Positions 1 to 26,114 of a stretch of 34,536 nt of DNA are shown piece by piece. Position 1 is the stretch's first letter. Each line of letters starts with the position of its first letter. The position numbers and the translations under genes were made by a program. Source of the DNA: a bacterium. Its GTDB lineage: Bacteria > UBP4 > UBA4092 > JAOAEQ01. A model generated the notes under the pieces. The model saw only the letters and a program-made list of their open reading frames with translations, made no database searches and was not told the DNA's origin. The stretch lies in the NCBI GenBank assembly GCA_026416715.1, contig JAOAEQ010000026.1, positions 1-34,536 of the forward strand, written 5' to 3'.

Positions 1-484
1 ATTGATACTAGCCCAGCCATTCATGGCTGGGTGGTTGTAAGGTACCAAACCGTAAGTCCCGCTCAGGGACGACTGAATCCCCAGGTGAACCACGAGATTA
101 TTCTCAGCCGTCCCGAACGGGACTTTTCCGTTGATTTTGTTCCATGCACCCCAGCATTCCATGCTGGGCTAAATGCAATCATCCCTACGGGATTGATTTT
201 TGTTAATCCGCAGAATGCGGATGATTGATACTAGCCCAGCCATTCATGGCTGGGTGGTTGTAAGGTACCAAACCGTAAGTCCCGCTCAGGGACGACTGAA
301 CCCCCGATAAACCACGAGACTATTCCCAGCCGTCCCACACGGGACTATGATTTGGTTTTGTTCCATTCACCCCAGCATTCCATGCTGGGGTAAATGCAAT
401 CGCCCCATTCGGGGCTCACCACCATCTATCAATCCTCTTTCCCAGCATTCTATACTCGGTTAAATCCTTACATCCCTACGGGAT
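1..484. repeat. Dense palindrome array with a ~223-bp tandem duplication
   Basis: This gene-free stretch is built from short hairpins. Clear ones are 12-31 (CCCAGCCAT/ATGGCTGGG), 56-70 (GTCCC/GGGAC), 110-123 (GTCCC/GGGAC), 150-168 (CCCAGCAT/ATGCTGGG), 181-193 (ATCCC/GGGAT) and 206-222 (ATCCGCA/TGCGGAT). The order then restarts at 224: bases 1-77 and 224-300 are identical, and the rest of the second copy, to about 416, is diverged but keeps the hairpin order. The array ends with a degenerate copy and an ATCCC/GGGAT hairpin at 472-484. A short open frame crossing 31-228 is explained by the repeats and is not called as a gene. Confidence 0.85.
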
Positions 485-515
485 TGTCTCTCGTGAGTTT
501 AATTTTATATTTGGG

Positions 516-4584: not shown

Positions 4585-4635
4585 CAAAATGGTTTACATC
4601 AGCGCTTCTCGAGACCGAATAAATTCTGTAATCGC

Positions 4636-5395
4636 TTAATTTCTTACAATATTCATCAAATTCGCCTGATGATTCGCTAATATATATTGTACAGTATCAT
4701 TAATCCGTTGTCGAAAACTTTTGCTACCATTTCTAACCCGGGTTTCGTAACTCGTTCTATCGAATAACTCTGAATCCCATAATTCGCGGAAATAATCCAA
4801 AGTATGTTGTTGCGTCAGATATTCACCGCCGGAACCGAATTCGTTAATAACCGCTGTCGCTAGATGTTCAGAATCAGCGGTAACTCCTTGCAGGATGCGG
4901 TTCAGCAAGCTGATAATCTCGCTGGTCATAAGAATCAAGTCGAACGAGGTAGTCATTCCGCTCTCTAAACATCCGATACCGTGAATCAGATTCGCGCCGC
5001 CTAACAACTGGAACGTGCAGGAGACGCAGCGGTTATTGCCGCTTGTTCGTCCGGTAGTTTAGAATCTGTTGCGGCTGCCATACTCCACAACGGATGACGT
5101 TGACCGGTGAACGGGTCGAGGATATTCGGGCAATCAGTTCCGTTGCCGTAATAGGTATTGAACCCGGATAACCGCATAGCCGGTTCTCCGTCTCGGGTAT
5201 AGATTAGGATTCCTTTCGGCGTAGTAGCGAGCGATTGTTCAACTAATGTAGTAGAGATATACACGCGCGTTCCGTCAATTTTCGTACAGCATCTGCTAGA
5301 ATTTTGATAGTTTTTTCTTCAAAGATACTGATTCCGGTTTTTGCAAGAACATCCAGCGCTGCGGAAAAGAACTTCCCGCAGGATTCGGGTGGTAG
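4636..5395 (-). pseudogene. Degraded MttB-family (trimethylamine/betaine methyltransferase-like) gene
   Basis: Translation of the minus strand gives pieces typical of the MttB family, corrinoid-dependent methyltransferases acting on methylamines or glycine betaine. The pieces are an N-terminal stretch with ALDVLAKTGISIFEE (about 5365-5318), a TRDGEPAMRLSG...NGTDCPNILDPFTGQR segment, an ATDSKLPDEQAA segment and a C-terminal GGANLIHGIGCLESG segment. The frame is broken twice: near 5283 one base is missing in an A-run before KIDGTRVYIS, and near 5027 one base is missing before SCTFQLLGGANL. About 190 residues of the normal ~480 are also absent, between TGQRHP and the AATDSK segment (near 5090). 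The gene is almost certainly dead. No in-frame UAG at a pyrrolysine position can be judged because the centre is gone. No corrinoid protein partner lies nearby. Confidence 0.85.
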
Positions 5396-5470
5396 TATGG
5401 TAAATATGGATGGAACATAATGGTATTATTATATTATTAATTGTTCACGCCTTAATTTACCTTATGGAGT

Positions 5471-5746
5471 TCAGCCGTCCCGAAAAGGGACTATCATTTT
5501 GTTTTGTTCCTTTGTGCCCCAGTATTGCATACTGGGCTAAGTTCAGCCATCCCTACGGGATTGATTGAATTCTCGCATTCCATCTCCCCAGCATTCTATG
5601 CTGGGCTAAATGCAATCGCCCTTGCAGGGCTTGTATAATGCTTTTTGTTAATCCCGTAGGGATGATTGAAATTAGCCCAGCCATTTATGGCTGGGAAACT
5701 ATTAGGGAAACCACAACCATAAATCCCGCTTAAGGGACGACTGAAC
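5471..5746. repeat. Second CCCAGC-type palindrome array
   Basis: The spacer between the methyltransferase remnant and carB carries GTCCC/GGGAC (5477-5491), CCCAGTAT/ATACTGGG (5518-5536), an ATCCC/GGGAT hairpin, CCCAGCAT/ATGCTGGG (5587-5605), GCCC/GGGC (5618-5630), ATCCC/GGGAT (5651-5663) and CCCAGCCAT/ATGGCTGGG (5676-5695). TCCC/GGGA (5724-5737) with GACTGAA after it closes the array. The pair 5651-5695 is the inverted orientation of the pair 5587-5630. Stem changes are compensated (CCCAGTAT with ATACTGGG). Confidence 0.85.
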
Positions 5747-5815
5747 TTCACCCATCTTCCTTCCGGTTGAAATCAAACAACATTTTTAAGATATTGCACG
5801 AAATTAATAGTAAAT

Positions 5816-21656: not shown

Positions 21657-21753
21657 TTCCCCCTGTAAGGGCGACTGAATTGAGCCCAGCATACAATGCT
21701 GGGTAGGTAGAATGTGATAGGTTAATCAATCCCGTAGGGATGACTGAATGTAG
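21657..21753. repeat. Third CCCAGC-type palindrome array
   Basis: Between two convergent genes lie a CCCCTGTAAGGG-type hairpin followed by GACTGAAT, CCCAGCAT/ATGCTGGG (21685-21703) and ATCCCGTAGGGAT followed by GACTGAATGTAGCC, where the partner CCCAGC hairpin is missing. The last unit is therefore a truncated element abutting the end of the subtilase gene. Confidence 0.8.
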
Positions 21754-21763
21754 CCTTTGCGGA

Positions 21764-22966
21764 TTAGCGGAAAAGCGGTTCATTCGCCCAATTAGGATTT
21801 GCATTCGCAAAGAAGAACAGCGGATATTGAACTACCGCTTCCGCATTAACCAACCCTGCACCTTGTTTCTCTGCGGATAATCCTAAATTCGTTGCCGTTG
21901 TCTGAAGAACGGATTTAATTTCTGCCGGTGATTGGTTCGGATACTGTGCTAGTCGTAATGCTACTACGCCGGTAACATGCGGAGTAGCCATCGAGGTTCC
22001 GGACATCGTGGTATATTCGGATTTTTTATACGTCGAATATATTTGTGCGCCCGGTGCAGTGATATCTACTTCCGGTCCGTAACTACTAAAACTCGCTAAA
22101 TTCAGATTCGCATCGAGTGCGGAAACAGCGATAACTTCCGGATATGCACCCGGATAATCGACGCTATTCGGCGCTCCGTCATTCCCAGCAGCGGCTACTA
22201 ACGTTATTCCGGCACGATATGTTTTCGTTATCGCTTCCTGTTCAGATACATTCGACGCATTGCTCCCGAAACTCATATTGATAACCTTAATCTGGTTATC
22301 GATACACCATTGCAATCCTTCAATGATATCAGATAACCAGCCGGTTCCAGCAGCGTTAAGCACTTTCACCGCATACAGATGCACTTCCGGCGCTACTCCA
22401 ACCACGCCGATAGCGTTATTCACCGCAGCTACGATACCCGCAACATGGGTTCCGTGCCCATTATCATCATTAGCGGATTTTCCGGGTTTGATAGTATTAA
22501 TTCCGCCTTTAATGTTCGCTTTCAAGTCCGGATGCGTTAAATCTATCCCAGTATCCATAATCGCTACTTTAACCGCAGTTCCTTTACTAATCGACCACGC
22601 TGCAGGCGCTCGCACCGTAGCGATACCCCACGGGATAACCTGTGCCGGTGGTGGCGGTGGTTGTGGTTTTCCTGTCGCATAGAATACAATATCGTCATCA
22701 ATCCGTTTAATTTCAGCGCGTTTTGCGAGCGCAGATTTAACCGTATCGTTCGGTAATACCACTGCGCTACCGTTAATCAACCGCAGATGTTTGACTACCG
22801 TTCCGCCAGCATTTTGTATCAGACCGGATTTAACTTCATCAGGTATCGGTTTCTCAAACACGACAATATATTTCCCATTCGGCTGCGCTCCCGCTACTCC
22901 AATCCACCATAAACATATACTGATTAATATTGTGAACAACATTATTATTTTATTGCGGTGGTTCAT
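21764..22966 (-). CDS. Secreted subtilisin-like serine protease (S8)
   Basis: A 400-residue exported subtilase. A signal peptide (1-27, ends GVAGA) is followed by an I9-type inhibitor propeptide (about 31-97) and a linker with five prolines in a row (102-109). The catalytic domain (about 112-385) has Asp138 (IMDTGI), His171 (NGHGTHVAG), oxyanion Asn262 (AAAGNDG) and Ser325 (GTSMATPH). All catalytic residues are present, so it should be an active endopeptidase after propeptide removal. The start is ATG 22966 because AGGAGGAG lies just before it; an in-frame ATG 11 codons upstream would include that ribosome site. It is not operonic. Its role may be nutrient or surface protein processing. Confidence 0.95.
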   Translation of the reverse strand: MNHRNKIIMLFTILISICLWWIGVAGAQPNGKYIVVFEKPIPDEVKSGLIQNAGGTVVKHLRLINGSAVVLPNDTVKSALAKRAEIKRIDDDIVFYATGKPQPPPPPAQVIPWGIATVRAPAAWSISKGTAVKVAIMDTGIDLTHPDLKANIKGGINTIKPGKSANDDNGHGTHVAGIVAAVNNAIGVVGVAPEVHLYAVKVLNAAGTGWLSDIIEGLQWCIDNQIKVINMSFGSNASNVSEQEAITKTYRAGITLVAAAGNDGAPNSVDYPGAYPEVIAVSALDANLNLASFSSYGPEVDITAPGAQIYSTYKKSEYTTMSGTSMATPHVTGVVALRLAQYPNQSPAEIKSVLQTTATNLGLSAEKQGAGLVNAEAVVQYPLFFFANANPNWANEPLFR

Positions 22967-23145
22967 AGCGTATTCTCCTCCTGATTGTTTATAGTCCATA
23001 AAGCTATATTGTTACCGGTAATGTATATTATACTATATGCCTATCTTATCCATCTTGTCAAGCAAAGAGATTTAGGTTCGGTTTTCTTAACGGAACGGAG
23101 CAGTTGAACGGAACGCTAGTTACGATTCACGGTTAGTATTTTGCT

Positions 23146-24250: not shown

Positions 24251-24631
24251 TCTAACCCCGAAACATACACGAATTTACGCTAATAACATACCTACCGCCT
24301 ACGGAGTAGAATGAGAATTGAACCGTTCAATTCTCATTCCGCTACGGGGTAGAACCCGAGTTGAACGGTTCAATTCGGGTATCTCTACCGGTTGAGTACA
24401 TTAATGTTATCGGTTAATAGGATAAACGGGTTAGGAAAAAATTATATTGATTTTATTGGAGTTAGATTAACTATCGAGCAAAATCCGAACTTCGGACTCT
24501 GCACGAATAAAAAATAAATCATATCGACCCAGGGTTAATTTGATTTTTGGTGAGATAGGGATTTGATACATCTAACGTTAACGGGTAAACTGCATAGGTT
24601 AACCGTATCTATCCGTGGTTAAGCAGGGAAG
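24251..24631. other. Gene-free convergent spacer holding twin palindromes
   Basis: This spacer lies between the DAHP synthase gene (+) and the namZ gene (-), which converge. It holds the twin palindromes described separately and a short palindrome TCCGAA C TTCGGA (24484-24496). No ORF and no T-tailed terminator were found. Confidence 0.6.
24297..24380. repeat. Two tandem palindromic units with a shared TTGAAC-GTTCAA core
   Basis: Unit 1 has CTACGGAGTAGA followed by the palindrome at 24309-24339, in which a 14-base arm (GAATGAGAATTGAA) pairs perfectly with its partner around CCG. Unit 2 has CTACGGGGTAGA followed by the palindrome at 24354-24380 (ACCCGAGTTGAA paired with TTCAATTCGGGT, one G-T). 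The left flank and the core are conserved between the units, whereas the outer arms differ yet stay self-complementary. Confidence 0.8.
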
Positions 24632-25879: not shown

Positions 25880-25908
25880 AAAATAATCCGAATTGGTGGA
25901 TTTCAGTC

Positions 25909-25992
25909 ATCCCTACGGGATTGATTAACCGTTCGCTTGCTTCCTCCCCAGCATTCCATGCTGGGCTAGATTCAATCGCCCCATTCGGGGCT
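25909..25992. repeat. Fourth CCCAGC-type palindrome array
   Basis: ATCCC/GGGAT (25909-25921), CCCAGCAT/ATGCTGGG (25947-25965), the linker CTAGATTCAATC, and GCCCC/GGGGC (25978-25991). The last two hairpins with their linker repeat the arrangement at 370-416 and 5587-5630. The array lies upstream of the namZ-like start on its minus strand. Confidence 0.85.
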
Positions 25993-26114
25993 AATAACAA
26001 TCTTCCAACCTAATGTATTGAATTCTACCTAATGATGTAGCAATTATAGAGGGATACCTTAATTATTGTCAAGCAATCTTTCGAACGTAACGGAAGAACG
26101 AAAGAATAATTACC

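Follow-up and report, generated by a model that had tools for sequence, protein, structure and literature searches.

Insertion sequences of the IS200/IS605 family, such as IS608 and ISDra2, have ends that form hairpins and that are not known to be inverted repeats of each other. The REPINs or BIMEs of E. coli and Pseudomonas, which are associated with RAYT (TnpA-REP) transposases, are high-copy, intergenic palindromes arranged in inverted pairs that also flank the single-domain HUH/Y1 gene. In the classification of TnpA-Y1 proteins by Quentin 2018 (PMC6006769), subclass 1.2 comprises proteins of about 148-150 aa with the motifs DH[IV]H, WQ and Y---Q--HH, is found chiefly in Cyanobacteria and Bacteroidetes, and is listed with 'no' for REP and, as a rule, without terminal hairpins. 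Class 3 proteins of the same classification are ~178 aa long with a Y----Q motif; their genes are flanked by high-copy atypical secondary structures with a CnGA foot, and they occur in Planctomycetes and Acidobacteria. Weinberg et al. 2010 (PMC2864571) describe Acido-Lenti-1, from Acidobacteria and Lentisphaerae, as an sRNA whose role is unknown.

The repeats of the window analysed here, a contig of 34,536 nt, share with REPINs their high copy number, intergenic location, inverted pairing, flanking of single-domain HUH/Y1 genes and a TAG foot at one hairpin. They differ in that each end has three hairpins, GTAG is not strict and the enzyme, missing from this genome, is of another subclass. Part of the repeat belongs to Acido-Lenti-1 by covariance model score; in contrast with the described RNA, it is included in a three-hairpin unit found at transposase genes in many phyla.

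Identity and anatomy of the repeat

The original prediction described a recurring unit of two hairpins, A and B, joined by a linker, and left the family unnamed. The Rfam covariance model identified the A-linker-B core as RF01687 (Acido-Lenti-1), with four copies above the gathering cut-off in the window and 14 in the genome. All the copies initially noticed were recovered, and 5518-5562 proved to be a further one. The A-linker-B unit is thus real, but its description as two hairpins only was incomplete. Comparison of 30 genome copies with their flanks revealed a third hairpin, C (TTCAGYC-GTCCC..GGGAC-TA), located about 25-30 nt 5' of A. The full unit consists of three hairpins in the order C-A-B, spans ~105 bp and is frequently repeated in arrays and in inverted pairs. 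Hairpins B and C, each preceded by TCARYC, appear to be variants of a single module. By rough mapping, the outer ends of the unit stop sharply at GGGACT in some hosts, but run on for about 30-45 bp in others.

With a covariance model derived from units of this genome, we detected at least 76 C-A-B units in its 2.96 Mb, a lower bound since 150 of 884 candidates were scored. The initial caveat that a genome-wide covariance search might return only the few copies already seen therefore does not apply.

In the window, eight C-A-B units were found at E < 1e-8, and the genome-wide scan added those at 384-487 and 5531-5633, each of which has a hairpin in common with its neighbour. The first unit, on the minus strand and cut by the contig start (1-88; A' 12-31, C' about 56-70), scores 48.7 bits with covariance model R1, being cut off at its 3' end, and has a weak Rfam score of 20 bits. 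It is followed by a plus-strand unit at 92-196 (C 110-123, A 150-168, B 181-193; R1 93.6 bits) with an RF01687 match above gathering at 150-194 (38.8 bits), an inverted, minus-strand unit at 203-311 (B' 206-222, A' 235-254, C' 279-293; R1 67.1 bits, RF01687 24 bits) and a plus-strand unit at 314-418 (C 332-345, A 371-389, B 402-415; R1 88.9 bits). The unit at 384-487 (+) is a decayed array unit (A 441-459, imperfect; B 472-484; 56.7 bits in the genome scan) that shares a hairpin with the preceding one.

A second group starts with a plus-strand unit at 5459-5564 (C 5477-5491, A 5518-5536, B 5549-5561; R1 81.3 bits), whose RF01687 match at 5518-5562 scores 42.3 bits. The main copy of the original prediction, 5531-5633 (+), uses 5549-5561 as its hairpin C (A 5587-5605, B 5618-5630; 89.9 bits in the genome scan; RF01687 match at 5587-5631, 38.6 bits), and next to it is an inverted, minus-strand unit at 5648-5756 (B' 5651-5663, A' 5676-5695, C' 5723-5738; R1 80.9 bits; RF01687 match at 5650-5695 on the minus strand, 46.5 bits). 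These three matches also lie above gathering. Further on, the copy near 21657-21753, first taken to be truncated, is a complete inverted unit (21657-21759, minus strand; A' 21685-21703, C' 21729-21741; R1 84.1 bits) that ends 5 bp from the 3' end of the ORF 21764-22999(-). The last unit is at 25891-25994 on the plus strand (C 25909-25921, A 25947-25965, B 25978-25991; R1 95.4 bits).

Units 92-196 and 203-311 are in the inverted phase CAB-B'A'C', as are 5531-5633 and 5648-5756, and units 203-311 and 314-418 are in the phase B'A'C'-CAB. Positions 206-415 have the order of the transposase loci of other genomes, C' and C being 38 bp apart with no gene between them; this pair corresponds to the transposase element without its gene. 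As initially claimed, the copies are intergenic: none of 24 sampled copies overlaps an ORF of at least 150 aa, vs 226 of 480 random positions at the same loci.

Other features were noted in passing. A second repeat, CACCGCAGAG..CGCAGAG, adjoins several own-genome copies (L001, L002, L003, L014, L016 and L021), a few tens of bp past hairpin B. One intergenic region of the window, 2212-2530, contains other palindromes (CCCCGAGTTTTAACTCGGGG; GTTCGGGAGCTTGCTCCCGAAC), with a weak score of the C-A-B model at 2212-2296. Two tandem inverted-repeat units of ~43 nt (GAATTGAACCGTTCAATTC type) at 24299-24384 have no relation to the C-A-B family, and neither does a weak, below cut-off match to Rfam PYLIS_3 at 4974-5072(-). 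A broken reading frame at 4600-5420(-) resembles a remnant of a trimethylamine methyltransferase (MttB) gene.

Covariation of the stems

In 29 units of this genome, standard pairs occupy 98.4% of the stem cells. Stem cells changed on both sides number 51, vs 16.6 expected, a count that none of 500 shuffles reached, in agreement with the compensatory changes initially reported, although the relatedness of the copies and their detection by a structure model weaken the strict meaning of this shuffle control. The double-changed cells of these units also far exceed a slid-partner control.

We therefore performed a second test on copies that a search pattern, with the inner five pairs of hairpin A left free, detected in 37 other genomes. 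On average, 4.11 of these five pairs are formed, vs 2.18 after random reassignment of the arms (at most 2.57 in 1000 rounds). A-T, G-C, C-G and T-A interchange at the pairs; thus, the shape is conserved and the sequence is not.

Association with transposase genes in other genomes

A pattern scan of named genomes detected the unit in Verrucomicrobia, Planctomycetes, Hydrogenedentota, Sumerlaeota, Lentisphaeria, Acidobacteria, Desulfobacterota and Calditrichota. Each of the 37 other carrier genomes, from eight phyla, contains 20 to over 122 scored copies of RF01687, and Y1 transposases were found in 35 of these genomes. The proteins associated with the repeat are ~150 aa long, belong to Pfam Y1_Tnp and have the motifs HuH, WQ and Y-I-x-x-Q-x-x-H-H. 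They carry the marks of subclass 1.2 (HuH, WQ, Y---Q--HH, about 150 aa), to which we provisionally assign them by motif rather than by the original HMMs. They differ from the described subclass by their C-A-B flanks and by their presence in Verrucomicrobia, Planctomycetes, Acidobacteria, Sumerlaeota, Calditrichota and Desulfobacterota. Structured, high-copy flanks and the hosts Planctomycetes and Acidobacteria are reminiscent of class 3, but its foot, motif and length are different.

When the best Y1 locus per carrier genome was considered, RF01687 was found to adjoin 18 of 23 Y---Q--HH transposase genes, vs none of the seven other Y1 genes. The downstream copy starts 42-56 bp past the stop codon on the gene's strand (12 loci), and the upstream copy ends 40-94 bp ahead of the start on the opposite strand (eight loci). 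On both sides, hairpin C lies between the gene and A, which gives the order B'A'C'-ORF-CAB, locus L181 being a clear example. This REPtron-like arrangement, with hairpins flanking a transposase gene at fixed geometry, was found in other genomes; no gene was found in the window's own genome. Gene-flanking A stems are closer to the dispersed copies of their own genome than to foreign ones (2 of 10000 shuffles).

A sequence-blind scan found perfect C-A-B stems on one or both sides of 33 of 69 genes placed in subclass 1.2 by motif and none at the remaining 36. The most frequent geometry at genes is an A stem of 8 bp with a loop of 4, a gap of 12 and a B stem of 5 bp with a loop of 3. Such stems are absent from all 11 genes of these genomes that we counted as class 2, one of which (L195) later fell inside the 1.2 group on a tree. 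One genome has two identical IS200-type genes that gave a one-sided C-A-B score with atypical dimensions, which we take as chance or proximity. Among the subclass 1.2 lineages without C-A-B in the scan are L207/L211, L212/L216, L189/L203 and L171/L194/L204. The loci L207/L211 and L189/L203 lie within runs of other repeats, which may represent ends of another kind. Among congeners of one carrier, intergenic DNA was too diverged for an empty-site comparison.

We also analysed 195 Verrucomicrobia genomes, chosen independently of the repeat except for the carrier at the group's centre. RF01687 and the enzyme profile occur together in 33 of them, the repeat alone in 11, the enzyme alone in five and neither in 146 (Fisher p=1.1e-22, or 4e-22 without the carrier, values that are inflated by the shared ancestry of the genomes). 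The enzyme is thus missing in 11 of the 44 repeat-bearing genomes of this set. Weak enzyme matches in genomes G110 and G218 were left out, as they are other Y1 classes or fragments. The physical linkage stands apart from the p-value: 19 of 30 enzyme loci in the Verrucomicrobia set, one of which is the carrier's own gene, have RF01687 in the flank analysed.

These observations bear on the current annotation of Acido-Lenti-1 as a gene family for small non-coding RNAs, which would function as transcripts. Rfam catalogues it as an sRNA, PMC2864571 has 'RNA? probably', and G-U pairs are tolerated in some stems. However, the repeats are present in dozens to more than 100 copies per genome, in both orientations, in arrays and inverted pairs, and at fixed distances on both flanks of transposase genes. 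Moreover, promoter-like sites around one array number 1 vs 2.1 expected. It is therefore very improbable that the function of these sequences lies in a transcript.

Relationship to IS200/IS605 and REP systems

The nearest PDB structures to the enzyme are IS608-type TnpA and its relatives, and the member examined scores above the NCBI IS200 cut-off and below that of REP_Tyr_transpos. In a quick tree, the enzymes separate both from the class-2 RAYTs and from the IS200 proteins of the same genomes. With IS200 TnpA as the nearest relative and hairpin ends as in IS608 and ISDra2, the units might represent the termini of an ordinary IS200/IS605 insertion sequence, together with copies of it that have lost their interior, and not a REP-type system, and some genomes do have related transposase gene copies with the same ends (G007, L161 and L181). 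We give this little credence, since here one end is the inverted repeat of the other, and the TnpA genes are few and diverse, whereas the small, non-autonomous units are far more numerous in each genome. A further difference from IS608 and ISDra2 is that no tnpB was noticed. Subclass 1.2 itself has 1.7 copies per genome at 36% identity (Quentin 2018, PMC6006769).

It is extremely unlikely that the repeats are classical REPs of a class-2 RAYT, even though they are intergenic, multicopy palindromes in inverted pairs, and hairpin A has a TAG foot at its 5' side on the complementary strand. In a search that did not require it, NTAG was found directly at the A stem on that strand in 35 of 46 gene-flanking A hairpins, with GTAG in 12 of the 46. 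In the own genome, the foot is TTAG in 16 and CTAG in eight of 29 units, not the 5' GT[AG]G of class-2 REPs. Furthermore, the class-2 genes of the same genomes are devoid of C-A-B flanks, the own genome has no class-2 gene, and the associated enzymes lack Y---NP, the member examined falling on the IS200 side of the NCBI cut-offs. The original prediction of REP- or REPIN-like elements with a RAYT was thus correct as to genome-wide, covarying, inverted palindromes linked to a Y1/HUH transposase; the enzyme is not of class 2 (Y---NP) but IS200-related, of ~150 aa, with Y---Q--HH.

CRISPR and attC readings were dropped in view of the fixed three-hairpin unit, the inverted pairing and the transposase flanks, as was, on the same grounds, a terminator reading, the terminator-like matches in one array (3 vs 0.6 expected) being the B and C hairpins themselves; CGTC-tagged REPs, in which CGTC is an unpaired tag ahead of an 8-9 bp stem (PMC3733652), were rejected because GTCCC is here the stem itself.

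Search for a transposase in the window's genome

The RAYT-type Y1/HUH gene that was expected to accompany the repeats is not detectable in the window's genome or in the one other genome of its phylum examined. Neither genome gave a match to Y1_Tnp or to the profile of the relevant enzymes, and the same profile does detect enzymes in the Verrucomicrobia set. Contigs C21, C43, C44, C46 and C48 of the assembly (G000), as well as the window at its start, begin or end within repeat arrays, and therefore a transposase gene located between repeats could be missing from the assembly. Either the units are orphans, or the assembly has lost the gene. As the enzyme is missing from this genome, its repeat population is probably a relict, unless the enzyme gene sits in an unassembled contig.

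Proposed nature of the repeat and implications

Since the hairpins flank a small transposase gene on both sides in many phyla, they are most likely its short mobile elements. We thus propose, with a probability of roughly 0.8, that the C-A-B units are a non-autonomous, REPIN/MITE-like mobile element of single-stranded DNA that depends on a HUH/Y1 transposase of the subclass 1.2 type, Acido-Lenti-1 being its A-B part.

In such a system, the parent element would consist of an IS200-related HUH/Y1 gene of ~150 aa with three-hairpin ends (B'A'C'-gene-CAB), intact in other phyla, and the small form would be both ends without the gene. When the DNA turns single-stranded, e.g. as the lagging-strand template, the hairpins would fold and be bound by the transposase. 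Its tyrosine would then nick close to the outer end, and the excised piece would be pasted at another place. What we observe is the copy number, the structure, the covariation, the flanking geometry and the co-occurrence, whereas mobilisation and the strand involved are inferred, as are binding, nicking and pasting, for which the enzyme family is our basis. Hairpin A, on the strand with the 5' foot NTAG, is the best candidate for a recognition hairpin similar to that of GTAG-REPs.

It is also likely that Acido-Lenti-1 is a three-hairpin DNA end rather than an sRNA, and that with subclass 1.2 HUH transposases it forms a separate REP-type system in at least six phyla, in which the hairpins diversify with the enzyme; the subclass would then have REPs. 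A full-text search of the openly readable literature returned no report tying Acido-Lenti-1 to a transposase, although an earlier report of the link between hairpins and enzyme may exist elsewhere. Regulatory guesses now rest on Acido-Lenti-1 as an sRNA, for example in PMC13298647.

If our proposal is correct, a 16-year-old orphan 'RNA' family would be reassigned to mobile DNA, and its annotation as an sRNA would end. The HUH proteins of subclass 1.2, reported to be without REPs, would gain a defined substrate amenable to in vitro assays. Finally, the many natural pairs of enzymes and hairpins with covarying stems would serve to study how HUH proteins read DNA hairpins.
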